Program-made: the position numbers and the translations under genes
DNA from: Protula sp. h YS-2021
Taxonomy: Eukaryota > Annelida > Polychaeta > Sabellida > Serpulidae
Direction: 5' to 3'
NCBI GenBank assembly: GCA_949752745.1
Contig: OX457025.1
Span: forward strand, 49,837,601 to 49,901,600
DNA: 64,000 bases
Notes under the pieces: model-generated
Databases searched by the model: none
What the model saw: only the letters and a program-made list of their open reading frames with translations
Told to the model about the DNA's origin: nothing
Shown: positions 39,595-56,273 of the stretch, piece by piece
Position numbering within the stretch: position 1 is the stretch's first letter
How the letters are laid out: each line of letters begins with the position of its first letter

Positions 39595-39648
39595 GGGGAG
39601 ACACTTCAACTTTAGAGTTAGTTGAGGTGTGCACACTGAAGCGTCAAC

Positions 39649-39999
39649 ATGAATAGGAAAAGATCTGCAACAACGGATATGGATACACTTGCTGATACAG
39701 TCAAAGACATGAATGTGAAACATCCTGACACTACCATCAAGAAATTAAAAGTGGAGATAGCACCAACACCACAGTCGTGGGATGGAATGCTTTCTCTAGG
39801 CAATGGAAAGTATATCAAGATTATGAAACAAAGTAATGAAGGTGTGATAAACATTCGCAAGTACCTGAGAGATGAGGGGACTGGAAAAAACCGTCCAACG
39901 AAAAAGGGTATCTTGCTGACAATACCTGAATGGAAAATGCTGAAGAAGCAGGTGAAAGAAGTGGATAAAAGGCTTCGCAGACAAGAAGACGGCTCATAA
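39649..39999 (+). CDS. PC4-like (p15) ssDNA-binding / transcription cofactor protein
   Basis: 116 residues. The basic, flexible N-terminus is followed by a PC4-type domain: LGNGKYIKIMKQ, GVINIRKYLRD, RPTKKGILLTIPEWKMLKKQ and VKEVDKRL. The beta-strands with NIRKY, the KKGI loop and the terminal W-x-x-L helix match the order in the eukaryotic PC4 coactivator, which dimerises on ssDNA and acts in RNA polymerase II transcription. In a Polinton it could assist replication or late transcription. It directly follows PolB and has its own TATA box; the next ORF starts 12 bp after its stop. Confidence 0.8.
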   Translation: MNRKRSATTDMDTLADTVKDMNVKHPDTTIKKLKVEIAPTPQSWDGMLSLGNGKYIKIMKQSNEGVINIRKYLRDEGTGKNRPTKKGILLTIPEWKMLKKQVKEVDKRLRRQEDGS

Positions 40000-40011
40000 C
40001 AAGGTAAAAAC

Positions 40012-40383
40012 ATGAATGCACTCATGCTGAACCGTGGTGCTTACCTTACTGTAAATGATAGGAATGAAGTGATACTAGGTTCTCAGACAAGTTATCATCG
40101 GTTTAAACCTGAAGTGTGGAAAGACTTTAAAAACATACCACTTGAACATGGGTTTAAACGTAGACTTGAAAATAAAGTGGAAGTGACGGTGGCTGAATAT
40201 GATTCTAACATACGTGTAGAAATCTGTAGAAATCTTTTACAGGATTATCCAAAGGATTATAAGGGAGTTGTGCCAGATACACCGTATACAGATTTGATCA
40301 TCTTTGATATCAAGAACTGGCGCGCAGTCTTACGATTCCTAGAAGCTATACAACATCCACTCTTCGCCATCTTGCGAGCATAA
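40012..40383 (+). CDS. Small ORF, possibly a diverged PC4-like protein
   Basis: 123 residues, ATG 12 bp after the PC4-like gene's stop. The central part VEVTVAEYDSNIRVEICRNL, then TDLIIFDIKNWRAVLRFLEA, has the layout of a PC4 fold: beta strands with V-x-V/I-R-V, then a strand leading into a W-containing helix. There is no clear sequence identity. No other domain is recognised. Function unknown; proximity suggests co-expression with the PC4-like gene. Confidence 0.6.
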   Translation: MNALMLNRGAYLTVNDRNEVILGSQTSYHRFKPEVWKDFKNIPLEHGFKRRLENKVEVTVAEYDSNIRVEICRNLLQDYPKDYKGVVPDTPYTDLIIFDIKNWRAVLRFLEAIQHPLFAILRA

Positions 40384-40437
40384 AAACGTCTTTGCAGACA
40401 AGGAGACAGCTCATAGTTCATCTGACTGTTGAACGAG

Positions 40438-40779
40438 ATGGAAGAATTTTTATCGGAATATGAACCTATTTCACATGGATTCTCGTATCTGAGAAACTTA
40501 TGTGATGACATTGTGCTAAGACATTTTGGAAAGTATATCATTCTATCAACTGACGAACAATCTGTGTTGAAAGACCATCTAGAGAAGTTCAGGATACCTG
40601 GCTTTCTCCTGGCAGTCTCAAATGAATTAGAAGTGTGTGTGACTGAGAACTGCTTAGACGTGTTTGTACAATTTCGCCAATATGACGAGCTTACAGAACG
40701 CTACGACTACATCACCCTCAACACAGTGGAATGGTACGCTCTGTTACAAGCATTGGATTGGAAAGAACCTGACGCTTGA
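40438..40779 (+). CDS. Small ORF, possibly a diverged PC4-like protein
   Basis: 113 residues from the ATG at 40438. The second half reads LEVCVTENCLDVFVQFRQYD, then DYITLNTVEWYALLQAL. This again fits strand-strand-W-helix, like the PC4 C-terminus (LT-x-x-EW-x-x-L). The N-terminal 50 residues are not recognised. A diverged paralogue of the neighbouring PC4-like ORFs is the best guess. Confidence 0.6.
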   Translation: MEEFLSEYEPISHGFSYLRNLCDDIVLRHFGKYIILSTDEQSVLKDHLEKFRIPGFLLAVSNELEVCVTENCLDVFVQFRQYDELTERYDYITLNTVEWYALLQALDWKEPDA

Positions 40780-40804
40780 ATTCAAAGAGGAAGGAGTGCA
40801 ACTC

Positions 40805-41062
40805 ATGCGAGGCACCAAGTCCATTGAACTGACACATCCCATGTGTGTTATGGTGATGAACATTGACATGAATGATCATGGATATGAACTGAAACTGTCT
40901 GAACATGAAGATGTTAAAATAATAAAGTTTGGTAATGGACAGTGTTATGCTAGTTTTCATAGCATTTACAAACGTGAATGTAATGTCTATGATGCATATA
41001 TTAATTTAGATTGGTATGAATGGCATGTGTTTATTGATGTATTGAATGTATTTGTAAAATAA
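40805..41062 (+). CDS. Small PC4-like-fold ORF conserved in element B
   Basis: 85 residues from the ATG at 40805. It has GYELKLSEHEDVKIIKFGNG followed by CYASFHSIYKRECNVYDAYI and LDWYEWHVFIDVL, ending in a W/F-rich helix. A related relic on the opposite strand in element B (30590-30814) shows that it is a genuine conserved gene, not a chance frame. An AATAAA at 41109 follows the stop. Function unknown. Confidence 0.65.
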   Translation: MRGTKSIELTHPMCVMVMNIDMNDHGYELKLSEHEDVKIIKFGNGQCYASFHSIYKRECNVYDAYINLDWYEWHVFIDVLNVFVK

Positions 41063-41108
41063 AAATTCAATGTAAAATAATTGTTGAAATGTAAATAATG
41101 TATAACAC

Positions 41109-41147
41109 AATAAACAAAGAATGTTGTATAAAACTGTCTTGTTTATT
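41109..41147. terminator. Convergent polyadenylation signals
   Basis: AATAAA on the + strand (41109-41114) serves the PolB/PC4 side. Its complement TTTATT at 41142-41147 serves the capsid side, in the 151-bp gap between the two convergent gene blocks. Confidence 0.65.
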
Positions 41148-41213
41148 TACAATATTCATAATACAATTCACAATTACCAACAACTTAACTAATACAACTT
41201 AACTAATACAACA

Positions 41214-41651
41214 TCAATAAAATAATGGTTTATAATGTCTATATACAAAATCCTTTACAACAAAATCACCATCACTTCTTCTTAATACATCAATGATTTC
41301 AAAAGGACTATGTCCTCGAGCTCTTTGAATTATATAATACACACAATAAAATCCACATGTAGAGGATATCGGTGTTTGTAATGGAACTGAATTATAAATG
41401 AAATGAAACTTTAAAAACTTATTCAAACGACTGTCTATAGGTAAAAGTCCATAAGAGTCAAAATATTCTGCAGGGTCTTCGTCATAATATACTGCCACCC
41501 AATGCTCTCCTGGCTCATCATGATCGTCTGTGTTGATGACATAGGCACCGCGTTGTAAAGATGGTAACTGGTCGATGGCAAACACACCTTGAAACAAGTC
41601 TTTTGTCGTGGCATCATGGGATAGGATGGCTTCTATCTGCTTCGTGTTCAT
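41214..41651 (-). CDS. Adenain-like cysteine protease
   Basis: 145 residues, Ulp1/adenain (C5/C48-type) fold. In related virus families it cleaves capsid and core precursors during maturation. Visible catalytic set: H50 in EPGEHWVAVYY, D65 in EYFDSYG, Q92 in LQTPISSTCG, and C99 in STCGFYCVYY, with the Q-to-C spacing of seven seen in adenain. Its ATG overlaps the MCP stop (ATGA). It ends the capsid gene block and is followed by a polyadenylation signal. All key residues are intact. Confidence 0.93.
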   Translation of the reverse strand: MNTKQIEAILSHDATTKDLFQGVFAIDQLPSLQRGAYVINTDDHDEPGEHWVAVYYDEDPAEYFDSYGLLPIDSRLNKFLKFHFIYNSVPLQTPISSTCGFYCVYYIIQRARGHSPFEIIDVLRRSDGDFVVKDFVYRHYKPLFY

Positions 41652-43021
41652 GACTGGTAGTCGAATTGAATGCTACGATTTGCACTTATTTCAACAATGT
41701 TATCAAATTCAGCATACACTATAACATTGACTGTATTTTGCAAGGCACCAGCATAATTCATTTCTAGTCTCAAATTCCCATGTTTGATAAGGGCATAATG
41801 ATCAGCACCATCATAATCAGGTGTTAAGTCAAAAGAAAATAAAGAATAACCTCTAGGCCAATCTTCCCGTTTTATAATGGAACTTTTCTCACCATCCAAT
41901 CTATCAAAAGATTTGTAAAGTGTTTCAAAAGCATCAAGATATTTGCCTCGATTTATATCAAGCTTGAGAGGTTTGGATAGGACTGGTTCACCATCAGAGT
42001 AAAGCTGCATAAAGTTAAGATCAAAATGTTCAAAATTGTATGGATTTCTCAATACTGTTCCAGCAAAGGATTCATTATGAACCATTCCAATGACAATACG
42101 TTTTGGTAATTGGCCTAAAAAGATGCTATCTTTCACAAAAGATTGAAATCCAGTTGGAATAGCTAAATTTTTACACTCTTTTCTATTAATAATAAACTTA
42201 GCAGGACTTTTCATCAATGCATCTGCATGTCCCAATTGAATACCTGGACTAACCCTCACTTTGCGAATGGTTAAAAACGCTTCTCTCACTTCTACTTTAA
42301 AACCATTATTTGCAGCCATTAATACATATTCATCTTTTTGTCTATGTAAACGTAATTTCATACTAACACCATTGGGAAGATAACGATCCTGCTCAAACAA
42401 ATCTACCCTTAAACCACCTGTAAGCATAAACTCACGGCTTAGACGTGTATACAAATAGCGATTATGTAAACCATTATTTCCTGTTTCAGCTATATCACCA
42501 CCTTCAATATTTACATGAAAACCTGGTACATATCTTTCATGATTAGGTCTTTTCACCTCATGAGTATTCATTGACCCGGCAGTATCTTTATAGATGAGAC
42601 GCATAGAGCGCTCAGAATGGAGACTTTCTTCCGAGTCATGAATGAGATGAGATATGATGCTGGTATAACCATGGGTATTGTTACTATGTGATACCAATCG
42701 ATCATTTAGAAATAATTCAATATTGGACCATAACCCATTAAACAAATCATTGATACATGACACGTTATCATCTACACCACACGGTGTACCATCAGCCTTT
42801 ACAATGCGACATATAATATGGAGTTTACTGTTCTTTAAATCTAGATATTCTTCGGTACTCGCAGGAATGTAGAATTCTATTGGAGCACCCTCTCTAATGG
42901 TAGTCATTGGTTGATAGTCTACATTATAACTTTTTTCTACAGCAGTTTGCGTTGGTGGTATGTGAAACCATTCTAATGGAGAAAGACTACATTCACAAGA
43001 ATGATTATGAATTAAAGACAT
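41648..43021 (-). CDS. Major capsid protein, double jelly-roll (hexon-like)
   Basis: 457 residues, recognised by IEFYIPASTEEYLDLKNSKL, then LFNGLWSNIELFLNDRLVSH, NNTHGYTSIISHLIHDSEE, and C-terminal RLEMNYAGALQNTVNVIVYA before SIQFDYQS. These are the landmarks of Polinton and adintovirus hexon-like proteins, which form the trimeric double jelly-roll capsomer. The length is within the family range. The start lies 2 bp after the core gene's stop; its own stop overlaps the protease start. The frame is intact, unlike the copy in element B. Confidence 0.92.
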   Translation of the reverse strand: MSLIHNHSCECSLSPLEWFHIPPTQTAVEKSYNVDYQPMTTIREGAPIEFYIPASTEEYLDLKNSKLHIICRIVKADGTPCGVDDNVSCINDLFNGLWSNIELFLNDRLVSHSNNTHGYTSIISHLIHDSEESLHSERSMRLIYKDTAGSMNTHEVKRPNHERYVPGFHVNIEGGDIAETGNNGLHNRYLYTRLSREFMLTGGLRVDLFEQDRYLPNGVSMKLRLHRQKDEYVLMAANNGFKVEVREAFLTIRKVRVSPGIQLGHADALMKSPAKFIINRKECKNLAIPTGFQSFVKDSIFLGQLPKRIVIGMVHNESFAGTVLRNPYNFEHFDLNFMQLYSDGEPVLSKPLKLDINRGKYLDAFETLYKSFDRLDGEKSSIIKREDWPRGYSLFSFDLTPDYDGADHYALIKHGNLRLEMNYAGALQNTVNVIVYAEFDNIVEISANRSIQFDYQS

Positions 43022-43023
43022 GA

Positions 43024-43380
43024 TTAAAAAATATCTTTCTTATATTTTGTTGATGTTATCCGTTTAGCTGCCTTTCGCCTTCTGACAGGTTTTGCTGGTT
43101 TCGCTCTCTTTTGTCCTCCTAACTCATCACCAAACATACGTTGTGCTACTCGACCTGTAACATCTTTCGCGACATCTTTTGCAGCCTTTTTAAGATGTGG
43201 TGCAACGATTTTAGCCCCTGCCTTAAGCAGTGGAATAGCTTTTCGAGCCAATGATCCCAGTATTGAACCAATACCATCTCCATATTGTATTCGCACTCCT
43301 TTAAATTCTGGTAATTCTCCACCCACTTGACGAAGAAAATGGTTGCGATATATAGATGGATTGTGTGTGTATGCTTTCAT
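43024..43380 (-). CDS. Core / pVI-pX-like virion peptide
   Basis: 118 residues. An N-terminal segment is followed by GDGIGSILGSLARKAIPLLK and AGAKIVAPHLKKAAKDVAKD, a glycine-led amphipathic and cationic helix. The basic tail is KRAKPAKPVRRRKAAKR. This layout matches small virion proteins of adenovirus pVI/pX type found beside the MCP in Polintons, thought to disrupt membranes or bind DNA. The ATG overlaps the penton stop (ATGA). Exact equivalence to pVI or pX is not settled. Confidence 0.8.
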   Translation of the reverse strand: MKAYTHNPSIYRNHFLRQVGGELPEFKGVRIQYGDGIGSILGSLARKAIPLLKAGAKIVAPHLKKAAKDVAKDVTGRVAQRMFGDELGGQKRAKPAKPVRRRKAAKRITSTKYKKDIF

Positions 43381-44141
43381 AATGCTTTTGGTCGAAAATG
43401 AAGTTTACAGATCACCTTTCCAGTTTGAAATGGAACATTATGGCCTGTGTCGTCCTTGATATTCATTTCTATCACGTCAAATTTGGATGTGTTTACAGGA
43501 ACATAATGCGGTTCTCCATAAGTTTTCATGATAATGTCTCCATCATGTCCTTGTATTCCAACAGAACGTAGCAAAGGAACATAATAATCACCAACAACTT
43601 GTGGCTCACAAATACTACAGTACACATAAAGTGTATAAAATCCCTGTTTCACATCAGCTTTATGTTCAGCTGTACACGTTTCAGTATACCATTGATCTGG
43701 GATAAATCCTAAAATCTCAGCTAATCCAGTTGAGAATGACACTTCAAAACCATAATTTAGAAATAGAAAAACACGTCGTCTAATTTTATCATACTTTATC
43801 TGAATAGCTTCTTTAAGGTCATCTTTCATAGAATTAGTTGCTTCTTTATTGACTGCCTGACATATCTCTTGTATGGATCTGTAGTAACCATAAGGAATAT
43901 TGATTGTGTCAAGAACAACATCATTCAGTGGTTGTTGTCGATACTGAATAGAATAGTCCATTCCATGTCTCATGGTTGTCCATGTATGTGGATATTGAAT
44001 TTCAGCTAAAGCCACTTCATATTTTCCGTTCAGATAGATGGTTCGAGGCATACGAATTTGATAATTCGAAGTCTTGTTGTTGGGATAATAGTTCATACTA
44101 GCATTGCTGGGTAAAGTAATGTAAAAACTTGTTGACTCCAT
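43377..44141 (-). CDS. Minor capsid (penton) protein
   Basis: 254 residues with the characteristic N-terminus FYITLPSNASMNYYPNNKTS, then MPRTIYLNGKYEVALAEIQY and PHTW. The C-terminal half has YCSICEPQVVGDYYVPLL and INIKDDTGHNVPFQTGKVIC-like strands. In Polintons this single jelly-roll protein forms pentons at the vertices. A TATATA on the - strand at 44188-44183 lies 47 bp upstream, so this gene probably starts the penton-core-MCP-protease transcript. Confidence 0.9.
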   Translation of the reverse strand: MESTSFYITLPSNASMNYYPNNKTSNYQIRMPRTIYLNGKYEVALAEIQYPHTWTTMRHGMDYSIQYRQQPLNDVVLDTINIPYGYYRSIQEICQAVNKEATNSMKDDLKEAIQIKYDKIRRRVFLFLNYGFEVSFSTGLAEILGFIPDQWYTETCTAEHKADVKQGFYTLYVYCSICEPQVVGDYYVPLLRSVGIQGHDGDIIMKTYGEPHYVPVNTSKFDVIEMNIKDDTGHNVPFQTGKVICKLHFRPKAL

Positions 44142-44182
44142 GACAGCTAAATCGTTTATGTGATGTAGATAGACTAGATGTG

Positions 44183-44188
44183 TATATA
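44183..44188 (-). promoter_or_regulatory. Possible TATA box of the capsid block
   Basis: TATATA in GTATATACA, 42-47 bp before the penton ATG, in the only sizeable gap (54 bp) between - strand genes from integrase to protease. Confidence 0.5.
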
Positions 44189-44195
44189 CATTACT

Positions 44196-44405
44196 TCATG
44201 TTTGACACTCTTCATCTTCACTTTCTACATTGTTGTCTACATTGTCGTCTAAATTGCTATCTACATGATCTAAATTGGTATCTACTACTTCTCCCTGACA
44301 ACAAGCACTAACACACCTAATTTTTACAGGAATAGTATTTTTATTTCCATTTTCTTTACAACAACAACACCATAGCTCTTTAATCCATGTTAAAAAGTTT
44401 CCCAT
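44196..44405 (-). CDS. Small Cys-rich ORF (69 aa)
   Basis: 69 residues: MGNFLTWIKELWCCCCKENG at the N-terminus, then KIRCVSACCQGEVVDTNLDH and an acidic D/N-rich tail. MG followed by a Cys cluster suggests possible myristoylation or palmitoylation and membrane association; this is inference. It overlaps the end of the 196-aa gene by 16 bp. A relic in element B conserves the RC-S-CC motif, so it is a real gene. Confidence 0.65.
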   Translation of the reverse strand: MGNFLTWIKELWCCCCKENGNKNTIPVKIRCVSACCQGEVVDTNLDHVDSNLDDNVDNNVESEDEECQT

Positions 44406-44980
44406 CCTTCTGGAAACAACCTTTGTTGACGTTGTTGTTGCTCTTTTGTAATATCTTCACGAGTTGTCTTTTTGCCAAAAACAGTTTTTGGAATATTAGC
44501 GTCTACAATTTCCTCAATAAACTGCTTCCAACCACGCGGTGGTTCTCGTTGTTCTTTTCTTCTTGTAGCAACCAATGCTTCTTTCAACAAATCAATAATG
44601 TTAGAATTTGTAATGACAGTACCTGTTTTTAAAACAAGTTCATTTTTATCTGTCCATCTCGTACCATATTTCTTAAGTTCTGCCAGAAGTTGTGTTAGTT
44701 TTACATGATAAATAGGTTGAAAATGGTTTAGAAACTGTTGAAACTTTTCTGATTTTTCTGCATTAGATGCTGTAACAGACTTTTGTCGCTGTTGTTGCGA
44801 CTGAATTGTTCGTAAATGACGGCCAAGAACTTGAGACATTTCTATTGCCTTTTCACGAGTTCTTTTCCCACGTAAAAGTTTATTCACTTTCGTTTTGATT
44901 TCACCATCTTTTCCCTTCTTTTCTAACAACATTTTATATTCATATTCAGGAATGAGGACCATTTTCATAGTATGTTTCAT
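44390..44980 (-). CDS. Conserved Polinton protein of unknown function (196 aa)
   Basis: Starts MKHTMKMVLIPEYEYKMLLE, followed by a basic helical region. A conserved block is LTQLLAELKKYGTRWTDKNE, then LVLKTGTVITNSNIIDLLKE. The end is Q/R-rich. The K-MVLIPE start and the NSNIIDLL block are familiar from other Polinton gene sets, but I know no assigned role. Possibly a scaffold or virion-associated protein. Its ATG overlaps the 108-aa gene's stop (ATGA). The element B relic confirms conservation. Confidence 0.8.
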   Translation of the reverse strand: MKHTMKMVLIPEYEYKMLLEKKGKDGEIKTKVNKLLRGKRTREKAIEMSQVLGRHLRTIQSQQQRQKSVTASNAEKSEKFQQFLNHFQPIYHVKLTQLLAELKKYGTRWTDKNELVLKTGTVITNSNIIDLLKEALVATRRKEQREPPRGWKQFIEEIVDANIPKTVFGKKTTREDITKEQQQRQQRLFPEGWETF

Positions 44981-45303
44981 TTTAACAGCAACTGAGCTAA
45001 CAAGGGCAATGCAAATTTAGCAATAGCTCCAATGAATCCTCCTTTCTGATTAACCAACTTCTTTTTTCTTCGAAGTGATATCTTCTTATCTGCTAGTGTG
45101 CGTAGGGTATGACGTTCACGTTTGAATACCTTATACCTTTTTGAGCTTAAGGGTAAATGTCCTCGCAATATATTCAAACAAATTTCAAACAAGCTAGTTA
45201 ATTCCTCCTTAGTAGCTTGTTGTAGCAAGGATTTACGTCGCTTAGGCCTGCTGCGTGCGAGCAAGTGAAGAAAAGGTTGATTCGCTTGAATACGTTTAGA
45301 CAT
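44977..45303 (-). CDS. Conserved small basic protein with hydrophobic C-terminus (108 aa)
   Basis: MSKRIQANQPFLHLLARSRP, then EELTSLFEICLNILRGHLPL, a basic stretch KISLRRKKKLVNQKGG, and the terminal helix FIGAIAKFALPLLAQLLLK. Similar ORFs with an ICLNILRG block and a GGF-led hydrophobic tail are common in Polintons between ATPase and capsid genes; the role is unknown. The tail may insert in membrane. It overlaps the ATPase stop by 8 bp. Confidence 0.78.
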   Translation of the reverse strand: MSKRIQANQPFLHLLARSRPKRRKSLLQQATKEELTSLFEICLNILRGHLPLSSKRYKVFKRERHTLRTLADKKISLRRKKKLVNQKGGFIGAIAKFALPLLAQLLLK

Positions 45304-45955
45304 CTTGGCTGCGAATGGTCAAGTGACTTGGTTCTTGTTCATACGCTACCTTATCAACATATACGTAATGTGTATCTTTTGGTAAAATGCCTGTACGAAT
45401 ACGTAGTTGATCATTCGTCTTCGGCTTCAAATCAATGAATAAATAGCCATGAGGTTTGCTGGTAGCATCTTGATAGGCTTCTATGAGAAATTGAGATTTT
45501 CCAGGATACATTTGTCGCGCTAATGTACTTATTTGTTGGCTGTCTCTAGGATTTTTAAACAGAATGATGTAATGTGTATTCAAACTAATATTTCGCATTT
45601 CTCTACCATGATGGAATAAATTATGCACAATAAAAATAATGCTTAGATTTTGATGACTGCTACCAACACTAAAGAGACGTGTCATTCGCTCATCACTATG
45701 ACATTTGGTCATTAAGTCATCAATGATGAGTAAGTTTGGCTTTTTCGGGTTAAAACGCTCTTCAATGTCATCTGGAATGCCTTGGTAAAATTCCACACCC
45801 TTCATTCCCTTGTATAAAGGCTGATCTGCTGCATAGAGCCATAAAATGGTTTTTGGAGAGGGTTTAATTAACTTTTGTTCTAGAATTTCTCTAACTAGAG
45901 AAGTTTTACCACTGCCTGTAGGCCCAGAGACCAAACACGTGAATGGATGCTTCAT
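45296..45955 (-). CDS. FtsK/HerA-type genome-packaging ATPase
   Basis: 219 residues from the ATG at 45955. A TTG further upstream would lengthen it, but the ATG forms an ATGA overlap with the integrase stop. Walker A is GPTGSGKTS (K17), Walker B is LLIIDDL (D79, D80). HNLFHHGREMRNISLNTHYI, then ILFKNPRD, carry the sensor-like segment typical of A32/Polinton ATPases, which translocate DNA into the capsid. The size is normal for the family and all motifs are intact. Confidence 0.93.
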   Translation of the reverse strand: MKHPFTCLVSGPTGSGKTSLVREILEQKLIKPSPKTILWLYAADQPLYKGMKGVEFYQGIPDDIEERFNPKKPNLLIIDDLMTKCHSDERMTRLFSVGSSHQNLSIIFIVHNLFHHGREMRNISLNTHYIILFKNPRDSQQISTLARQMYPGKSQFLIEAYQDATSKPHGYLFIDLKPKTNDQLRIRTGILPKDTHYVYVDKVAYEQEPSHLTIRSQDV

Positions 45956-47052
45956 TTTCGAATATCTGTTTCTTTCACCCAACTGTTAAACTTCTTTGGC
46001 CAACCTAACCACTTCACATATAATTCTTTAACACCTCGTCTTCTTCGTGTTTTCAAGGCCTTTTCAATTCTGTAGACTGATTCAATATCTTTTGTCACTT
46101 TCTGCAGTTCTTCTTCATAAAAATGTCCATCAATATCTTCATCTAAAAAGTCTTTCACACGATACAAGTGTATTCCTTGCTTCTTACAACGATGTGTGAT
46201 AATGAACACTTCTTGCGTCCACTTTATATGATAATCCCGTTGAAATACATATTTCATGTGAGAAATGCGAACCTGATCACCAATTTTAAATTTGTAGGGT
46301 TTTTTCTTCTTTGGTTTTAATTTCAATTTGTCTACATACATATACTTCCACACTTTCGATTCGTTGTCTTTACGAATATCTGCAGGAGCATACTTATTAG
46401 GGAGGGAGCCATGAGGTCTATGGTTGTAATTATACACTAAGCCTGGAAGGATGTCCATATATCGATACGTTTGATTATGTAGGAAATATCGATACATCAT
46501 TCCCTTTAGAGTACGAATGACTCTCTCAGCAAAGTTGGCTTTGGTTTCATTCTTTGTCGTATAGGCATGTATTCCCTCCTTCTTCAAAAATGCTTTTACC
46601 CATCTGTTTTTAAATTCAGTTCCTTTGTCTGACCTTAGAGTTCGTGGTCTTCGTTGTGTTTCATGAAAAATCTTTTGAAAGGCTTCTATGACACTCGTAT
46701 GTGATTTATTAGGCATTGGTTGCACCCATAAATATTTGGAAAACACATCAATGACAACCAACAAAAAACGGGTGTCATCATTATATGGAGCTATGTTTCC
46801 CATGTCAGCTAAATCAATATCCCACATGTCATCAATTCCACGTGTAATGACACGTTGCCTTTTAAACCTGTATTTTACAGGTTGTAGTAAACTGAAGGCA
46901 TCTTGATCCTGTAACCATTTCTTCACTTGTGAATGAGTGACTGGTTGATCATGTTTTTTTAATATATGATAAAGTTTATAAGGACCAGCAAATGGCCCGG
47001 GTTGACCAGGTTTAAAGTAAATATTGGTTAAGTAGTCTTTCCACGTTGACAT
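45952..47052 (-). CDS. Retrovirus-like integrase with C-terminal chromodomain
   Basis: 366 residues. The catalytic core has WDIDLADMG (D80), TLRSDKGTEFKNRW (D142) and ETKANFAERVIRTLK (E176), a D,D-about-35-E triad. It is followed by an SH3-like basic region and a chromodomain near residues 323-366 (SVYRIEKALKTRR, ELYVKWLGWP, FNSWV). The enzyme inserts the element, giving 6-bp duplications; the chromodomain may steer it to modified histones. An HHCC finger is only vestigial at the N-terminus. The stop overlaps the ATPase ATG. Confidence 0.95.
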   Translation of the reverse strand: MSTWKDYLTNIYFKPGQPGPFAGPYKLYHILKKHDQPVTHSQVKKWLQDQDAFSLLQPVKYRFKRQRVITRGIDDMWDIDLADMGNIAPYNDDTRFLLVVIDVFSKYLWVQPMPNKSHTSVIEAFQKIFHETQRRPRTLRSDKGTEFKNRWVKAFLKKEGIHAYTTKNETKANFAERVIRTLKGMMYRYFLHNQTYRYMDILPGLVYNYNHRPHGSLPNKYAPADIRKDNESKVWKYMYVDKLKLKPKKKKPYKFKIGDQVRISHMKYVFQRDYHIKWTQEVFIITHRCKKQGIHLYRVKDFLDEDIDGHFYEEELQKVTKDIESVYRIEKALKTRRRRGVKELYVKWLGWPKKFNSWVKETDIRK

Positions 47053-47069
47053 GTTAACACTAAATGATC

Positions 47070-47180
47070 AACACTTGTTAACATATCTTGCATTTTATTT
47101 TATCAACATATCTTACATTTTATCAACACATCTTAAATTTTATCAACATATCTTAAATTTTATAAAAGCTCAATCAACAT
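47070..47180. repeat. ~20-bp AT-rich tandem repeats upstream of integrase
   Basis: Five units of CAACATATCTTACATTTTAT variants. On the - strand they give repeated GATAAAATGTAAGATATG, with several TATA-like ATAAAAT stretches in front of the integrase start. A promoter role is plausible but unproven. Confidence 0.7.
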
Positions 47181-47183
47181 ATC

Positions 47184-47516
47184 TTACAAATCAAGTATTG
47201 ATACAATGGTGTGAATAATTGAAGTCCATTGATCTTCAATGTACATTAACCAACTACTTAATTCATCAAATGTGATAGCATCTACACCATATTTTTTACA
47301 ACGTTGATTTGCATTATCTAACACTTTATCTAAATGAATGTAATATTTAGCTTCATTCCAATATGTATAGACACATGCAGAATGACAAGTATGTTCTGAA
47401 CACTCTTCATTTTGACAAGCAGGACATACTAAACATGCAAACTTTTTTACAGCTAATAACATTTCTTCACAATATGTCTTTTGCACAATATATTGTCTCA
47501 ATGTAATGTCCGTCAT
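47184..47516 (-). CDS. Accessory ORF, helical paralogue family with Cys cluster
   Basis: 110 residues from the ATG at 47516, which overlaps the preceding stop as TAATG. There is a Cys-rich insert CLVCPACQNEECSEHTCHSA (two CxxC pairs and more), likely metal-binding. The C-terminal KYGVDAITFDELSSWLMYI resembles the end of the neighbouring 95-aa protein (FDPRLFDEVREWLIYI). This suggests a small family of helical proteins duplicated next to the right TIR. No known domain is recognised. Confidence 0.6.
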   Translation of the reverse strand: MTDITLRQYIVQKTYCEEMLLAVKKFACLVCPACQNEECSEHTCHSACVYTYWNEAKYYIHLDKVLDNANQRCKKYGVDAITFDELSSWLMYIEDQWTSIIHTIVSILDL

Positions 47517-47803
47517 TATACTGCAATGTAGATTAACCACTCTCTCACTTCATCAAACAGTCTTGGATCAAATCGAGCAAAGTGATATGCTGCTTCCACA
47601 TCTAACTCCTCAGCTCCGTCAATATTTGAAAGCACACACTCTTTGATGAAATCCTCACGTAATTTCGGTACGTTCAGCGTGGAATGAGCAAGTTCCCAAT
47701 AGATGTCAAAGTGTTCCAGTTGTTGTTGAATAGATCCAAAACGCGCCAGTTCACTTATCATGTAGTCCACATACGTCTCCTTGAAAAACGTTTCTACATG
47801 CAT
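47516..47803 (-). CDS. Accessory ORF, helical paralogue family (95 aa)
   Basis: MHVETFFKETYVDYMISELA, then FDIYWELA, LREDFIKECVLS and an end at REWLIYIAV. It aligns in pattern with the 139-aa ORF at 48489-48908 (VFKVNYVDYVFSKLPAF, HKHWEAVGK, RDEFIHSFLQEC), so the two are paralogues. No function is recognised. Accessory genes in this position next to a TIR are candidates for host interaction, which is inference. Confidence 0.6.
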   Translation of the reverse strand: MHVETFFKETYVDYMISELARFGSIQQQLEHFDIYWELAHSTLNVPKLREDFIKECVLSNIDGAEELDVEAAYHFARFDPRLFDEVREWLIYIAV

Positions 47804-47867
47804 CTTTCACATATCCATATGACACGTCTACACACTTTGACGACTGGCAAGCAAATGACTTGTAGTC

Positions 47868-48080
47868 TTACTCGGCAGATACTGTTAGTGAGCCGCACTT
47901 GTTGCAGAAGTTGTCAGGTTCACACAACTTGCAATTGTACTTGTGGCAGTGACAATCATAATCCTCAGCATATCCGTAAGCACCACAATATTCACAGGTA
48001 AGTCCAAGTTGATTTTGCACGTTCATATTCTCCAATCGAACTTCAGACAGTCTTTTCTTGGATAGCTTTGACACTTTCAT
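47868..48080 (-). CDS. Small zinc-ribbon-like Cys-rich ORF
   Basis: 70 residues from the first in-frame ATG (48080). The frame is open further upstream to 48176 with another Cys pair (PCTECHGKK) but without an ATG. It has CEYCGAYGYAEDYDCHCHKY, then CKLCEPDNFCNKCG: four CxxC-type pairs, so two zinc sites are likely. A TATA-like GCTATATATTGC lies at about 48187-48176. It could be a short transcription- or ubiquitin-related zinc protein; no family is recognised. The start is uncertain. Confidence 0.5.
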   Translation of the reverse strand: MKVSKLSKKRLSEVRLENMNVQNQLGLTCEYCGAYGYAEDYDCHCHKYNCKLCEPDNFCNKCGSLTVSAE

Positions 48081-48151
48081 TCGATTGTCCTTTTGCAGCT
48101 TAACAGGAGTTTTCTTCCCATGACATTCCGTACATGGCAGTAAGGTTGAGG

Positions 48152-48415
48152 TTATGCTATGGATTTCCTGAAGCAATATATAGCATAGCGCATATCCAAG
48201 TATGAAATGACTTCAAGCCACTTCGTTTGCGTTAAGTACAGTTTGAAGCCAATGTTGCGTAATCTTGTCAAGTTCTGACACACAATCTTCCACAAGGATG
48301 GTGATAAAGCAAGCCATCTCTCTCCACGTTTGATTCGAAGAAATAGCCCAAATTCTCCATGCTCCACAGTAATGGTTAAGTTTGCACTAATTTTAAAGCT
48401 GCTTGTCTTCTCCAT
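48152..48415 (-). CDS. Accessory ORF, possible diverged PC4-like protein (87 aa)
   Basis: MEKTSSFKISANLTITVEHG, then EFGLFLRIKRGERWLALSPS and LWKIVCQNLTRL. The strand pattern LTITVE...LFLRIKRGE...LALSPSLW followed by a helix recalls the PC4 fold and the element B relic LFVISDGLQVSVEEG. No catalytic motif. ATAAAAGG on the - strand (48460-48453) is a fitting TATA box 45 bp upstream of the ATG. Confidence 0.55.
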   Translation of the reverse strand: MEKTSSFKISANLTITVEHGEFGLFLRIKRGERWLALSPSLWKIVCQNLTRLRNIGFKLYLTQTKWLEVISYLDMRYAIYCFRKSIA

Positions 48416-48488
48416 GGCTGCGCGTTGAATGATGACTTCACTTCACCCTTCTCCTTTTATGCCATTAGAAATTGCAGAGTCAGCTTTT

Positions 48489-48908
48489 TTATAGTTCTTC
48501 AAACATTTTACAAAGCTTTGAATTCACTTCAACTCGTTCATTGTTGAATCGAACAAGTTCTGATGCATTCGTCGTCAATGGAACGCCATCATCATAATGT
48601 AAAATAATTCTAGCAGCTACAACTAGCATGAGTTCAGCTGCCCAAATTGTATTCGCGCGGATAAATGCTGAATCAATGTCGTAAGTTGATGGTAAAAGTA
48701 GTTCTTCACATTCCTGTAGAAATGAGTGGATGAATTCATCTCTTGGAATTATCTTTCCAACAGCTTCCCAATGCTTATGCAAATTCTTCACTTGTAAAAT
48801 CCAATTAGATTCAAAAGCAGGAAGCTTTGAAAACACATAGTCAACATAGTTCACTTTGAAGACGTCATCCATGGTCTCTACACATGGGTGAAGAAGTAAT
48901 GTTGACAT
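48489..48908 (-). CDS. Accessory ORF, helical paralogue family (139 aa)
   Basis: MSTLLLHPCVETMDDVFKVN, then YVDYVFSKLPAF, HKHWEAVGKIIPRDEFIHSF and YDIDSAFIRANTIWAAELML. It is predicted helical throughout with no signal peptide or known domain, and is paralogous in its first 100 residues to the 95-aa ORF at 47516-47803. The start codon is only 20 bp inside the right TIR, so its promoter would lie within the repeat. Confidence 0.6.
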   Translation of the reverse strand: MSTLLLHPCVETMDDVFKVNYVDYVFSKLPAFESNWILQVKNLHKHWEAVGKIIPRDEFIHSFLQECEELLLPSTYDIDSAFIRANTIWAAELMLVVAARIILHYDDGVPLTTNASELVRFNNERVEVNSKLCKMFEEL

Positions 48909-48927
48909 TGTTAATAATCAGGTGAAG

Positions 48928-49775
48928 GCGGAGAGCGATGTGTTCTGACGATACCTGAAAGCATTAAGAAAAGAAAACCATAATATGTTTTCAAAAAAAA
49001 ATTAAATTTTGGATTAGAACCCTGATTTTTACCCTACTACACCATGGTAAAATGTTCAAACTTATTTTATACATCATATTTTGTCAAAAAACAAAATTTG
49101 TTAAAGTTGGTCTAGAACCCTCATTTTTACTCTACTACACCATTGTATAATGTTTAAACTTATTTTATACATCATATTTTGTCAAAAAACAAAATTTGTT
49201 AAAATTGGTCTAGAACCACCATTTTTCCACTACTATGACTTTAGAATATTCAAATAAGTAGCGTGCTAAAAATGTTCAAACTTATTTTATATATCATATG
49301 GTGTTAAAAACTAAATTTGTTAAAGTTGGTCTAGAACCACCATTTTCCCACTACTATAACTTTAGATCATTCAAATAAGTAGCATGCTAAAATGTTCAAA
49401 TTTATTTTATATATTATATGGTGTTAAAAACTACATTTGTTAAATGTGTTTTAGAAGTGTCATTTTCCAACTACTATAACTTAAAACATAACATTAGACT
49501 TAACGTAGGGAAAATCCCATTCCTTCTCAAATTTATTGATCGTTCCCACACTCTGTACGAGCGCACTCTGAAATTATCGATCGGTTTTCCCTCACACTCT
49601 GTACGAGTGCACTCTGAAATTATTGATCGGTTTTCCCCCACACTCTGTACGAGTGCACTCTGAAATTTCTCAGTCGGTTTTCCCCCCACACTCTGTACAC
49701 ATGTACTTATGCTGTGTGTGTGTGTGTGGTTACTGTAATGGGAAACCATTGAAATATGACTAATTAAATATTATC

Positions 49776-49823
<48 letters not shown>

Positions 49824-50434
49824 GAAAAAAAAAAAAAGTCACTTACCACGACAGTTTTGCCAATTCGTCTCCAATCTTTCACTTCCTTTCCAAAGAATAA
49901 CCAATCGTTCACTTTCCTTTTCCAAAGAATAACTAATGTTTCACTTCATCTCCTATGTGTATTCCAGTCAATCCTTCACTTGTTCTTCAACAGCACAACA
50001 CAATAGGTAAGAGCAACTGTTTTCACTTTTTTTCCCCTGTGTATCCAACGGCAGTCAGAGCATGAATGATGCATATGTGCACAGACAATGTGCTCTTATA
50101 GGAGTGTTGAATCACATCCTAGGGGGGGGGGGGGGTCCCATGATATGATATACTTCTTCACCGGGGGGGGGGGGTCCCATGCTATATGATTGTTCACCAG
50201 GGGGGGGGTCCCCATGTTATATGATTCTTGACCAGGGGGGGGGGGGGCGTCCCCATGGTATATGATTCTTCACCAGGGGGGGGGGGTCCCCATGCTATAT
50301 GATTCTTGACCAGGGGGGGGGTCCCCATGGTATATGATTCTTCACCAGGGGGGGGGGGCAACATGATGACGTCACTTCCGGTCCAGACAGTATGACGTCA
50401 TCAAGTGCGCCAGAAACGGTGTTTCTACCCTACT
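48928..50434. repeat. Element A right TIR
   Basis: 1,507 bp, reverse complement of 34274-35786 with few substitutions and different G-run and ATT-repeat lengths. It contains the mirror copies of the CRE/ETS block (50364-50400), 36-bp G-run repeats and the 46-bp array. Confidence 0.95.
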
Positions 50435-50983: not shown

Positions 50984-50989
50984 CGTCAC
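50984..50989. repeat. Element S target-site duplication (left)
   Basis: CGTCAC, identical to 56268-56273. Confidence 0.93.
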
Positions 50990-51057
50990 AGTAGGGTGAA
51001 AACAAGAGAACCACCGCACTTTTGCGGTGGAACTCTTAAGAGTTCCACCGCACTTTG

Positions 51058-51163
51058 TGACGTCATACTGTCTGGACCGGAAGTGTTGTCTGGATCGGAA
51101 GTGCTGTCTGGACCGGAAGTGTTGTCTGGACCGGAAGTGCTGTCTGGACCGGAAGTGACGTCA
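51058..51163. promoter_or_regulatory. Five tandem ETS-like 18-bp units between CRE sites
   Basis: TGTCTGGACCGGAAGTG repeated five times (one copy with GGATCGG), bracketed by TGACGTCA-type sites. The first 28 bp are identical to the element A block at 34308-34335. The mirror copy is at 56094-56199. Confidence 0.75.
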
Positions 51164-51332
51164 TAGGCGTAACCAAGGCGTAACCATGGTGATAATGACG
51201 TCATCAGTCACGTGACCAATGAAAAGCCAATGAGATCAATGAAGACAATGAAGCCCCGCCCACTTTCTGTCTATCATACTGTCTGGACCGGAAGTGACGT
51301 CATAGACGTGGTCATGGTAACGAATTGAAACT

Positions 51333-51750
51333 TTGTAAACAAAAGTGAACTTTGTAAACAAACTGTGTAAACAAACTTTGTAAACAAAATTTGTAAATAA
51401 ACTTTATAAACAAAATTTGTAAACAAACTTTGTAAACAAACTTTGTAAACAAACTTTGTAAACAAAATTTGTAAGCAAAATTTGTAAACAAACTTTGGTT
51501 ATTTACATAATTGAAACTTTGTAGACAAACTTTGTAAACAAACTTTGTAAACAAACTTTGTAAACAAACTTTGTAAACACTATTTGTAAACAAACTTTGT
51601 AAACAAAATTTGTAAACACAATTTGTAAACAAACTTTATAAATAAACTTTCTAAACAAACTTTGTAAACAAAATTTGTAAACAAACTTTGGTTATTTGCA
51701 TAATTGAAACTCATTGAAACTTTGTAAACAAACTTAGTAAACAAACTTAC
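51333..51750. repeat. 14-bp tandem array
   Basis: About 28 units of AACTTTGTAAACAA variants. The mirror array is at 55505-55930. Frames rich in FTKFVYKVCLQSL are products of the period, not genes. Confidence 0.95.
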
Positions 51751-51779
51751 CCCCCCCCCCCCCACACTCTCTCCACACA

Positions 51780-52079
51780 CACCACGACTGAGCATTTCAT
51801 AAGCCACATAGGTATTTCAACCTTCTGATGACAACTTTTTTTTCCCCCCCCTCACACACTCTCTCTCTCCACACACACACACACACACACACACCACGAC
51901 TGAGCATTTCATAAGCCACATAGGTATTTCAACCTTCTGATGACAACTTTTTTTTCCCCCTCACACACTCTCTCTCTCCACACACACACACACACACCAC
52001 GACTGAGCGTTTCATAAGCCACATAGGTATTTCAACCTTCTGATGACAACTTTTTTCCCCCCTCACACACTCTCTCTCT

Positions 52080-52114
<35 letters not shown>

Positions 52115-52200
52115 ACGACTGAGCGTTTTATAAGCCACATAGGTATTTCAACCTTCTGATGGCAACTTTTTCCCCCACACTCTCATGCATACATACCAAC
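51780..52200. repeat. ~115-bp tandem units with CA and CT microsatellites
   Basis: Four units of ACCACGACTGAGCATTTCAT followed by AAGCCACATAGGTATTTCAA and a (CA)n/(CT)n tract of varying length. Mirrored at 55060-55500. Confidence 0.93.
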
Positions 52201-52599
52201 ACCATGATAAAATGTTTTGCTTATGTTGCTCTTTGTACTCCATTATTCTTCTTTTTTTTTTGTTTTTGTTTGAAATGCAGTGTTTACTTAGAAAAGAAAA
52301 TGGCGTCATACAACCTTCAATCGTCATCAGCAGCATTTCGTCATCAGTGTAATCAGACTGCGTAATTAGATTTCGTCATCAACAATGTAGACAGCGGTGT
52401 CAGGCTTTTCGTTTTTCTGAGGCAGCAGTGTCTAACTGCTTGGAGTTGCAGTATGACCCTAAGTGTTATACTTGACCGATTTACATGAAAATTTCACTGT
52501 TTAATTCAGTTTTATATCTAGTTTTCACATAGTCATGGACTGGTTGTGCAGCTGGCTGTATGTATCATGAATTCACCTTAAAATGATAAGTTAAAAGTG

Positions 52600-52910
52600 G
52601 AATAAAGACGTCATGATGACGTCATCATTATGACGTCATAATAACGTCATTCGAACAGGCGCGCGCTTTACCAAAAAAAAACTGACTCAGCAGAATTTGT
52701 TTCTGTTTGATATGCATGAAATGCATGTCTCACTCTTCCTTTTATGTTACTTTGATGTAATCAAAATATGGTGTGTAACTTGCTCAAACATTCAAACTTG
52801 TTATAATTGCTGACTCAGCATAATGACGTCATGATGACGTCATAAAGACGTCATGATGACGTCATAAAGACGTCATGATGACGTCATAAGGACGTCATGA
52901 CGTTAGACTC
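52600..52910. promoter_or_regulatory. CRE-like and MARE-like motif cluster before the zinc-finger gene
   Basis: Repeated GATGACGTCAT units (52610-52650 and 52830-52905, 20-22-bp period) and two ACTGACTCAGCA/TGCTGACTCAGCA sites (52681 and 52809). TGACGTCA is a CREB/ATF consensus and TGCTGACTCAGCA a Maf/AP-1 (MARE) consensus in animals. This could be an enhancer for the gene at 53145; binding is not shown. Confidence 0.55.
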
Positions 52911-52945
52911 CCCTAAGCGGCATAACCCTAACCCTAGACGTAGAC

Positions 52946-53083
52946 AACATGTTCAACAACATGTTGAACATGTTGAACATGTTGTTCAACATGTTGAACA
53001 TGTTGAACATGTTGTTCAACATGTTCTTGAACATGTTGTTCAACAAGTTGAACATGTTGTTCAACATGCTGTTCAACAAGTTG
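52946..53083. repeat. Palindromic CAACATGTTG array (5' of gene)
   Basis: Tandem dyads such as GTTCAACATGTTGAAC, each self-complementary. A similar array lies on the other side of the gene at 54095-54330. Open frames of VEHVVQHV type are artefacts. Confidence 0.92.
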
Positions 53084-53091
53084 TATATAAG
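53084..53091 (+). promoter_or_regulatory. TATA box of element S gene
   Basis: TATATAAG, 61 bp before the ATG, the same core and nearly the same spacing as the TATA box of the PC4-like gene in element A. Confidence 0.7.
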
Positions 53092-53144
53092 GCTATGTTT
53101 AAAGGCTTTTTCATCATTTGAAAAGTGTATGTTGAACCGAAAAG

Positions 53145-53882
53145 ATGTATAAATGCAACATTTGTTTGAAATCTTACAATTGGCCACAAAGTCTTAAAAG
53201 ACACTTAAAGAATGCTCACACTTCAGAAGAAGAAGAATTGGAGATAGATATGGTAAACCCTGTAAAACCACCTATCACTGAAACTTTAGATGAGTCTTCT
53301 ATGGAAAGTCAAAGCGTCAACATGACTGAAAAGAATGCACATGCTTGTACAGAATGTGGTGCGTTGTACAACAGTCAAGAAGCTTTGTTCAAACATATGG
53401 AACATTGTGTTGAGGGTGATGATGACGACAGCTCTGAAAGTGAGTCAGAAACAGACTCTGAAAGTGAGTCAGAAACAGACTCTGTTTGGTATGATATGGT
53501 TCAAGAAGTCTACGATGAATATGATACCAAATTTCAAGAAAAGGTTTCAGAATATGAAGAACAAGGGCTTGAAGATGCGCGTGAAATAGCAAGTGATGAC
53601 TTTCGACCCATTTATAAGCGTCGACTTAAACAACTGTTTATGAGACTATTCAAATATGCCCAACGTCTACAACAAAACGAACATTATGAAACCATTTTAG
53701 AAGACTTTAATTACTTTGTTGATGAAAAACATTACGAGTATTCAAAGGCACTAAAGGCGGCTATAAGAAGAAACGATGCATTCTTTGAAGAGCTTCTAGA
53801 TGAGGAGGAGGAAGATGAAAGCAGTGACGAAGAAAGTGATATGGATGCCAGTGAACAGAGTGAAGCAGATGAAGAAAAATAG
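53145..53882 (+). CDS. Acidic C2H2 zinc-finger protein of element S
   Basis: 245 residues. Finger 1 is YKCNICLKSYNWPQSLKRHL (C4, C7, H20, H25). Finger 2 is CTECGALYNSQEALFKHMEH (C68, C71, H84, C88). Then come SESETDS repeats, a helical middle (about 120-215) and a very acidic C-terminus. Two fingers with long acidic regions suggest a DNA- or chromatin-binding regulator; the PolB of element A also carries N-terminal Cys/His fingers. It is the only gene in element S. The frame is intact with good Kozak-like context and AATAAA signals at about 53905 and 53925. It may be a terminus-binding or trans-recruitment factor (inference). Confidence 0.8.
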   Translation: MYKCNICLKSYNWPQSLKRHLKNAHTSEEEELEIDMVNPVKPPITETLDESSMESQSVNMTEKNAHACTECGALYNSQEALFKHMEHCVEGDDDDSSESESETDSESESETDSVWYDMVQEVYDEYDTKFQEKVSEYEEQGLEDAREIASDDFRPIYKRRLKQLFMRLFKYAQRLQQNEHYETILEDFNYFVDEKHYEYSKALKAAIRRNDAFFEELLDEEEEDESSDEESDMDASEQSEADEEK

Positions 53883-53954
53883 ACTTATTTGACTAAACAT
53901 TATAATAAAGACTTTGTAAATCAATAAATGTTATAATATTGTTATAGATTTAAG

Positions 53955-54050
53955 CTGTATGTATTTAAGTTATTTAAGTGTATTTAAGTGTAGTTAAGTG
54001 TAGTTAAGTGTATTTAAGTGTATTTAAGTGTATTTAAATGTATTAATAAA
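53955..54050. repeat. ~11-bp TATTTAAGTG tandem repeats
   Basis: About eight units of TGTATTTAAG / TGTAGTTAAG downstream of the zinc-finger gene. Confidence 0.85.
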
Positions 54051-54094
54051 CCTATTCAACATATGTCTTGTTTTTTCTTTGCTTGAACTACAAC

Positions 54095-54330
54095 TAGTTG
54101 AACAACTTGTTAAACATGTTCAACATGTTCAACATGTTCAACAACATGTTTAACAAGTTGAACATGTTGAACATGTTCAACATGTTCACATGTTCAACAA
54201 CATGTTGAACATGTTCAACTTGTTGAACATGTTGTTGAACATGTTGAACATGTTGAACAACATGTTCAACATGTTGAACAACAGCTTGTTGAACAATTGT
54301 TGTACAATTGCTAAACAACTTGTTGAACAA
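54095..54330. repeat. Palindromic CAACATGTTG array (3' of gene)
   Basis: Counterpart of 52946-53083, longer and less regular, including ACTTGTTGAACA variants. It lies outside the TIR proper, so the pair of arrays brackets the gene. Confidence 0.9.
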
Positions 54331-54414
54331 TAGTTTGACGTAAAAATAATTCAAACACATGTTGAATGGTGGGGGGCGCGCGCCATTCCAATAACCCACC
54401 TATGCACAAACTAC

Positions 54415-54770
54415 TTTAAACGAAAACATCAAACTGAATCCAACGGTGAAATGTTCATGCAAATCCGTCAACTATAGCGGAAGTTATCCCACTTTTTACA
54501 AAATTAAAAATTGTGGTAAATATGCACACAGCCAACTGCGCAAATAGCCTATAACCACTTAATGTTAAAACTAGATATAAAACTGAATCAAACAGTGAAA
54601 GTTTCATGCAAATCCGTCAATCATAACAAAAGTTATTCCACTTTTAACTTATCATTTTAAGGTGAATTCATGATACATACAGCCAGCTGCACAACCAGTC
54701 CATGACTATGTGAAAACTAGATATAAAACTGAATTAAACAGTGAAATTTTCATGTAAATCGGTCAAGTAT
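54415..54770. repeat. Three diverged ~150-bp repeats
   Basis: Units share AAACTAGATATAAAACTGAA, then CAGTGAAA-TTTCATGCAAAT and CCGTCAA. The innermost ones lie inside the TIR edge; only one copy is in the left TIR, so the array expanded on the right side. Confidence 0.75.
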
Positions 54771-55125
54771 AACACTTAGGGTCATACTGCAACTCCAAGC
54801 AGTTAGACACTGCTGCCTCAGAAAAACAAAAAGCCTGACACCGCTGTCTACATTGTTGATGGCGAAATCTAATTACGCAGTCTGATTACACTGATGACGA
54901 AATGCTGCTGATGACGATTGAAGGTTGTATGACGCCATTTTCTTTTCTAAGTAAACACTGCATTTCAAACAAAAAAAAAAAAAAAAAAGAAGAATAATGG
55001 AGTACAAAGAACAACATAAGCAAAACATTTTATCATGGTGTTGGTATGTATGCATGAGAGTGTGGGGAAAAAAGTTGCCATCAGAAGGTTGAAATACCTA
55101 TGTGGCTTATAAAACGCTCAGTCGT

Positions 55126-55158
<33 letters not shown>

Positions 55159-55240
55159 AGAGAGAGAGTGTGTGAGGGGGAAAAAAAAGTTGTCATCAGA
55201 AGGTTGAAATACCTATGTGGCTTATGAAACGCTCAGTCGT

Positions 55241-55291
<51 letters not shown>

Positions 55292-56267
55292 AGAGAGAGA
55301 GTGTGTGAGGGGGAAAAAAAAGTTGTCATCAGAAGGTTGAAATACCTATGTGGCTTATGAAATGCTCAGTCGTGGTGTGTGTGTGTGTGTGTGTGGAGAG
55401 AGAGAGTGTGTGAGGGAAAAAAAAAAGTTGTCATCAGAAGGTTGAAATACCTATGTGGCTTATGAAATGCTCAGTCGTGGTGTGTGTGGAGAGAGTGTGG
55501 GGGGGGGTAAGTTTGTTTACTAAGTTTGTTTACAAAGTTTCAATAAGTTTCAATTATGCAAATAACCAAAGTTTGTTTACAAATTTTGTTTACAAAGTTT
55601 GTTTAGAAAGTTTATTTATAAAGTTTGTTTACAAATTGTGTTTACAAATTTTGTTTACAAAGTTTGTTTACAAATAGTGTTTACAAAGTTTGTTTAGAAA
55701 GTTTGTTTACAAAGTTTGTTTACAAAGTTTGTCTACAAAGTTTCAATTATGTAAATAACCAAAGTTTGTTTACAAATTTTGTTTACAAATTTTGTTTACA
55801 AAGTTTGTTTACAAAGTTTGTTTACAAAGTTTGTTTACAAATTTTGTTTATAAAGTTTATTTACAAATTTTGTTTACAAAGTTTGTTTACACAGTTTGTT
55901 TACAAAGTTCACTTTTGTTTACAAAGTTTTAATTCGTTACCATGACCACGTCTATGACGTCACTTCCGGTCCAGACAGTATGATAGACAGAAAGTGGGCG
56001 GGGCTTCATTGTCTTCATTGATCTCATTGGCTTTTCATTGGTCACGTGACTGATGACGTCATTATCACCATGGTTACGCCTTGGTTACGCCTATGACGTC
56101 ACTTCCGGTCCAGACAGCACTTCCGGTCCAGACAACACTTCCGGTCCAGACAGCACTTCCGGTCCAGGCAACACTTCCGGTCCAGACAGTATGACGTCAC
56201 AAAGTGCGGTGGAACTCTTAAGAGTTCCACCGCAAAAGTGCGGTGGTTCTCTTGTTTTCACCCTACT
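54633..56267. repeat. Element S right TIR
   Basis: About 1,635 bp, reverse complement of 50990-52615, differing mainly in microsatellite lengths. Confidence 0.93.
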
Positions 56268-56273
56268 CGTCAC
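56268..56273. repeat. Element S target-site duplication (right)
   Basis: CGTCAC, identical to 50984-50989. Confidence 0.93.

Follow-up and report, generated by a model that had tools for sequence, protein, structure and literature searches.

Within a stretch of 64,000 nucleotides from the serpulid Protula sp. h YS-2021 (contig OX457025.1, positions 49,837,601 to 49,901,600; hereafter the window), the element S was analysed. It covers 5278 bp (50990-56267) and carries a zinc-finger (ZF) gene between long terminal inverted repeats (TIRs). S belongs to a family of non-autonomous Polintons that is both large and young: the ends, reading AGTAGNG, are of Polinton type, the core genes are absent and multiple copies exist in the genome. 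In the reading preferred here, to which we assign a probability of about 0.7, the members of this family are Polinton satellites mobilised in trans, and the ZF protein would probably work on element DNA while it is replicated or packaged. A satellite had already been proposed in a sequence-only reading of the window. This proposal was supported, with a dependence on a helper for movement or replication that would follow from the shared ends and the missing genes. The homology of the ZF protein to an extension of packaging ATPases is new and goes beyond that reading.

Structure and gene content of element S

Long TIRs beginning with AG are a criterion for Polintons. The TIRs of S (1616 bp left, 1635 bp right) begin with AG, and the end is more similar to that of the Polinton P, the right edge of which lies 555 bp left of S, than shuffled sequences are. 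AGTAGGGTGAAAAC was found exactly at both termini (50990, + strand; 56267, - strand). With up to two mismatches this pattern occurs six times in the window, compared with 0.59 expected, and none of 100 shuffles gave six; two of the six matches are located within the TIRs of P, off its termini. The hallmarks named in the sequence-only reading, AGTAGGG ends, the 6-bp target-site duplication (TSD) CGTCAC and kb-scale TIRs, were confirmed; the TSD is perfect and the TIRs measure 1.6 kb. Both TIRs are 99% identical over 769 bp ungapped, and 14 mismatches (blastn) or 20/1603 (MAFFT) were counted in addition to microsatellite indels. They are rich in motifs which we take to be CRE-, ETS- and FOX-like. 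The interior contains 24 copies of AACATGTT, compared with 0.2 expected.

Only one open reading frame (ORF) of at least 150 aa was detected in S, the ZF gene. The remaining ATG ORFs of at least 45 aa in 52606-54632 belong to repeat arrays or overlap the ZF ORF out of frame, except one of 50 aa (54455-54607, - strand). With the ORFs of P as queries, tblastn gave short matches of TIR type in S and no gene; PolB, RVE integrase, ATPase, protease and capsid were absent, in agreement with the earlier statement that S lacks polymerase, integrase and capsid genes. The acidic C2H2 gene is intact and has its own TATA-like box and two AATAAA signals, also as described before. The encoded protein starts with a C2H2 finger (aa 2-25), followed by a C2HC-type finger (aa 68-88), an acidic linker, a helical domain (aa 106-219) and an acidic tail. 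Among its 245 residues are 68 D/E and 25 K/R. In the predicted model most residues of the helical domain reach a pLDDT >90, and no clear fold match was obtained in a search with the whole predicted model.

Copies and family members in the genome

A search of the source assembly (863 Mb) with the ZF protein gave 6410 first-look candidates, the best 150 of which were scored, so the following counts are lower bounds. All 150 matches were full length with 98-100% identity. Stops were present in four, and 146/150 were stop-free. Divergent pairs of ZF genes were frequent among the scored matches. Eight neighbourhoods (L071-L075, L086-L088) were extracted to span whole elements, and with S a set of six two-ended elements was obtained (S, L074, L075, L086, L087, L088). 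Four of the further elements are flanked by perfect TSDs: L074 (6869 bp, AATAGC), L075 (6956 bp, CATCTC), L087 (4588 bp, CTGGTC) and L088 (3684 bp, CCTCCA). Further copies of S, on which the earlier proposal depended, are present. Empty sites, which the sequence-only reading had suggested looking for, were not found.

The family ranges from 3.7 to 7.0 kb, and S represents the single-gene form. L074 and L075 contain two opposed ZF genes within inverted arms of about 3.4 kb (97-98.5% identity). The description of one C2H2 gene as the sole content between the TIRs holds for S, but not for other members with two divergent ZF genes. It had also been considered that larger relatives might reveal S as an internally deleted element with its own PolB. 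Those found here, of 6.9 and 7.0 kb, each form a palindrome that carries two ZF genes and shows no similarity to P proteins. With 18 ORFs of P searched against the eight ZF neighbourhoods (E <= 1e-3), zero matches were obtained.

Two observations on single copies are added. In L072 one ZF copy (880-1641, - strand) carries a 24-bp in-frame insertion and encodes 253 aa, and its partner copy is normal. In L086 the element extends from 1133 to 4915, and the flanks 73-447 and 5600-5974 are inverted copies of each other with the same ORF on each side.

Long inverted repeats are difficult to assemble, and L086 lies within a larger inverted duplication. Both facts would suit an explanation of the palindromic copies as artefacts of assembly or rearrangement, with S as a chance juxtaposition. 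S and four others carry perfect 6-bp duplications, that is, five elements with five different TSDs at separate places, and the probability of this explanation is close to negligible.

Conservation of the ZF gene

From the ZF loci 56 ORFs of 738 bp were extracted, with overlapping loci counted repeatedly; they comprise 30 distinct sequences. Stops were not present in any of the 56. Of the distinct changes relative to S, 21 are synonymous and 36 nonsynonymous. Their ratio amounts to 0.37-0.40 in models with no transition bias and to 0.50-0.62 at a bias of 2-4; pN/pS over all pairs is 0.29. One-sided P values for the depletion of nonsynonymous changes range from 0.001 to 0.057. These values give modest evidence for purifying selection, and the gene is open and, as judged from the sequences, probably constrained. 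The concern that the ORF might be broken in other copies did not apply to the scored matches, a sample picked by protein similarity, which were mostly stop-free with nonsynonymous changes below expectation.

The gene could also be a mere passenger in deletion derivatives of an autonomous Polinton with a standalone ZF gene, intact only through a young burst. Youth explains much of the intactness, as only 0-2 substitutions separate S from the ORFs of L071-L075 and of the 30 loci ranked highest, and a finger ligand was lost in L088. Moreover, non-autonomous Polintons seem to exist, since the Repbase name Polinton-1N1_DR is given in the accessible part of PMC9341505. Opposed to this are the depletion of nonsynonymous changes and the standalone homologs, which remain open at 35-50% identity to S. 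While TIR content and ends vary, each of the six two-ended elements has retained the ZF gene and AACATGTT repeats (24-66 copies each); TGACGTCA sites were likewise present in 6/6 (10-20 each). A ZF homolog was not detected in P, in the older Polinton Q of the window or, with the ZF protein as query, in the four integrase loci L089-L092. Taken as a whole, we regard the passenger explanation as improbable.

Homologs of the ZF protein

Profile and region searches yielded 15 and 16 homologous proteins, respectively. S groups with 10 standalone homologs of other origin in a single clade (support 100/99). None of the eight zinc ligands varies among the 10 sequences of alignment A3.

In several homologs a sequence of an FtsK/A32-type ATPase, one C2HC-type finger and a C-terminal helical domain are combined in one ORF. 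Examples are P0017, a protein of 474 aa encoded on a contig of 22.4 kb, and P0020 (115 members). The fusion contigs also include those of P0016 (17.9 kb) and P0012 (17.7 kb). Comparison of the helical domains alone, S against the ATPase extension, gave an hhalign probability of 98.2 (E 4.6e-14, score 83.7), and the scores of 60 column-shuffled controls were at most 19.6. The hidden Markov model of the fused profile retrieves the S ORF at 2.7e-15. In the predicted models of the S protein and of an ATPase fusion the order of helices is alike; the ATPase model is of low confidence in that part. By profile comparison, the helical domain of the ZF protein is homologous to a domain that extends the FtsK/A32 packaging ATPase at its C-terminus in other Polinton-like contigs. 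The ATPase of P shows 47% identity to P0017 (alignment A4).

An acidic transcription activator of TIR or helper promoters, similar to Ziftr, is a different explanation, in which the link to the ATPase is an incidental fusion. The excess of acidic residues and the two fingers would fit an activator, and so would the density of the TIR motifs, provided that the factors are named correctly. Zinc-finger genes called Ziftr are mentioned for some adintoviruses in the accessible part of PMC11071296. On the other side, the homology spans the helical domain plus the finger, and this combination is fused to the ATPase in several proteins, suggesting that it works close to the packaging motor. In addition, arrays of GTAAACAAA, plentiful in S, are absent from 3/5 other two-ended elements. 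An activator is considered rather unlikely, though it is the second choice for the function of the protein, where it would act on element promoters.

C2H2 proteins are common among host genes, and small elements elsewhere are known to keep repressors. The ZF gene might accordingly have been captured from the host, or it might encode a repressor that protects the host or the satellite by silencing Polintons. The homologs examined are standalone proteins of like layout or ATPase fusions of Polinton type, and a host gene with the helical domain was not recognised among the 15 and 16 proteins, most of which are without names. Such an origin or role is very improbable.

Ends partly shared with Polintons

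The termini of P read AGTAGGGTAGAAAC and are similar to those of S; AGTAGGGT is common to both. L087 is 85% identical to the P terminus over the first 74 bp, and the end of L072 shows 90% across 70 columns. In an alignment test with the first 8 bases fixed and 300 shuffles, 6/7 satellite ends were more similar to the P end than all shuffles. The end of L074 exceeded all shuffles when compared with L122. For S, five other P-type ends were tested as well, and all shuffles were exceeded with L117 and L122. At least four end types occur among the ZF elements, though the ZF core is constant.

The integrase of P is present in at least 112 genome copies; all 112 scored matches were full length at 98-100% identity, and 111 were stop-free. 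These near-identical copies represent a recent Polinton burst. Outward tracing covered 20 other integrase copies, 12 of which were traced over a longer distance. The TIR of P is shorter than that of the sampled copies, from which P also differs in its end. Because P differs from its sampled relatives in its satellite-like end, the alignments suggest that ends may have been exchanged between Polintons and satellites.

Two further observations concern the TIRs. A 39-bp match (87%) connects 52708-52745 with 35818-35855, immediately inward of the TIRs in S and P, respectively; it exceeds all 100 shuffles, and its orientation relative to the element ends is opposite. In the outer TIR of the integrase copy L095 (C8:16426907-16428507) a tRNA-like stretch, resembling a short interspersed element (SINE), was noticed by eye.

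Evaluation and proposed mechanism

Several results weigh against the satellite reading. The ZF loci were chosen by protein similarity, which biases intactness and the ratio of nonsynonymous to synonymous substitution rates (dN/dS) toward constraint, and the P value of 0.057 was obtained at a transition bias of 4. In L088 the ZF frame (3022-3759, - strand) is open with a changed zinc ligand of finger 1 (H20Y); consequently, openness of the frame is no proof of function. In L086 (3783 bp) both ends are present, with the flanks ATGTGT/ACACAT and no TSD; this element seems to sit in a larger inverted duplication in place of a direct one. Only one end was found for L072 and L073, and no end within range for L071. 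As to the protein, two sequences labelled standalone, P0013 and P0014, have long branches and do not group with the clade. The ATPase of P has no ZF or helical extension, and the ATPase-ZF fusions come from other sources. As to the ends, 11/300 shuffles were as good as the match of L074 with P, and 4-8/300 as good as those of S with the remaining three P-type ends. The full TIR of S differs from the TIRs of P and of the sampled P-type copies. In 7/20 integrase copies (L099 and L118 are one copy) the tracing arrived at an end with the sequence AGTAGGGA[AG], identified by motif without a TSD check, and the CTGTCTGGACCGGAAGTG module occurred in 0/32 integrase-copy stretches. On these counts, the satellite-like end belongs to P itself and not clearly to the common P type.

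For the satellites, the following mechanism is proposed. PolB and integrase of P-type Polintons would replicate and integrate the satellites in trans via the shared ends, and helper capsid and ATPase would perhaps package them. With less certainty, the ZF protein would bind element DNA at the AACATGTT arrays and/or subterminal repeats; the arrays flanking the gene of S are the best candidate target. The homology of its helical domain to the packaging-ATPase extension makes a DNA-recognition adaptor its most likely role; as such, the ZF protein would recruit to satellite DNA the machinery by which the helper is replicated or packaged.

A more far-reaching version treats the family as a multi-copy Polinton parasite and eukaryotic counterpart of phage satellites. 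It would trade or mimic helper ends, and its sole protein would be a detached DNA-recognition module of the packaging motor that steers helper replication or packaging. In this complete form the proposal is tentative and unlikely. A thriving satellite whose gene is related to a packaging-motor module would speak indirectly for an active Polinton life cycle. If the satellites are packaged, animal Polintons would form transmissible particles. According to the accessible part of PMC8097293, Polintons are thought to be viruses, and particles have not yet been observed. With many near-identical copies of each in a single genome, the satellite and its candidate helper form a pair whose relation can be tested directly.

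Further features of the window

The coordinates are given in Table 1. The TSD of P (GTTCCG/GTTACG) has 6 bp with one mismatch. A decayed older Polinton, Q, extends from about 13.7 to 34.0 kb; its TIR identity is 73-92%, insertions interrupt it, and remnants of protease, MCP, penton, ATPase and other genes are left. A near-perfect palindrome of 2.4 kb (22793-25239; arms of 777 bp and 314 bp, 98-99%) contains an integrase-like ORF (23872-24837), presumably of BEL/Pao type.

Table 1 Coordinates of features of S and P in the window
Feature	Position	Strand	Remark or basis
TSD of S, left copy CGTCAC	50984-50989		exact
TSD of S, right copy CGTCAC	56268-56273		exact
Left TIR of S	50990-52605	+	AGTAGGGTGAAAAC end, ETS/CRE-like repeats, GTAAACA array, CT/CA minisatellite
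Right TIR of S	54633-56267	-	
Subterminal module common to S and P	51049-51085	+	37 bp at 94.6%, blastn E 6e-10
Second copy of the S/P subterminal module	51274-51303		30 bp at 100%
GTAAACA(AA) array	51330-51740	+	GTAAACA in left TIR 22 vs 0.7 expected
AACATGTT array upstream of ZF gene	52945-53085		
TATA-like box TATATAA	53084-53090	+	sequence
ZF gene, 245 aa	53145-53882	+	intact ORF
Two AATAAA poly(A)-type signals	53904-53928	+	starts 53904 and 53923
AACATGTT array downstream of ZF gene	54083-54340		
Polinton P, 16,161 bp	34274-50434		candidate helper type, TIR about 1.5 kb
PolB of P	35883-39593	+	motif reading or recall
Protease-like of P	41214-41672	-	motif reading or recall
MCP-like of P	41648-43021	-	motif reading or recall
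Penton-like of P	43377-44141	-	motif reading or recall
Packaging ATPase of P	45296-45955	-	Pfam
Integrase of P with chromodomain	45952-47052	-	Pfam

Comparison with known systems

The N in the name Polinton-1N1_DR stands for non-autonomous. By the meaning of this name, the zebrafish element is, like S, of Polinton type with core genes absent; in contrast, the conserved open ZF gene and the several end types are properties of the S family. P0017 and its kin share the homologous helical domain and C2HC-type finger with S. The protein of S is standalone with an extra N-terminal C2H2 finger, whereas that of P0017 is fused to the ATPase. Virophages encode capsid genes. As parasites of a larger replicon, virophages and satellite viruses are comparable to S in concept, but S is without capsid genes.

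A Polinton satellite with a conserved gene was not found in the accessible parts of the open-licence literature, which is no proof of absence. Some adintoviruses possess Ziftr zinc-finger genes, as stated in the accessible part of PMC11071296. By this description they resemble S as a zinc-finger gene in a Polinton relative; unlike the gene of S, Ziftr sits in a virus genome among other genes. Phage-inducible chromosomal islands redirect helper packaging, as described in the accessible part of PMC6739421. These islands are bacterial and their proteins are unrelated to S, for which packaging is hypothetical. In idea, the analogy may hold nevertheless: in both cases a factor of a small element would turn the packaging machine of the helper to its own DNA.

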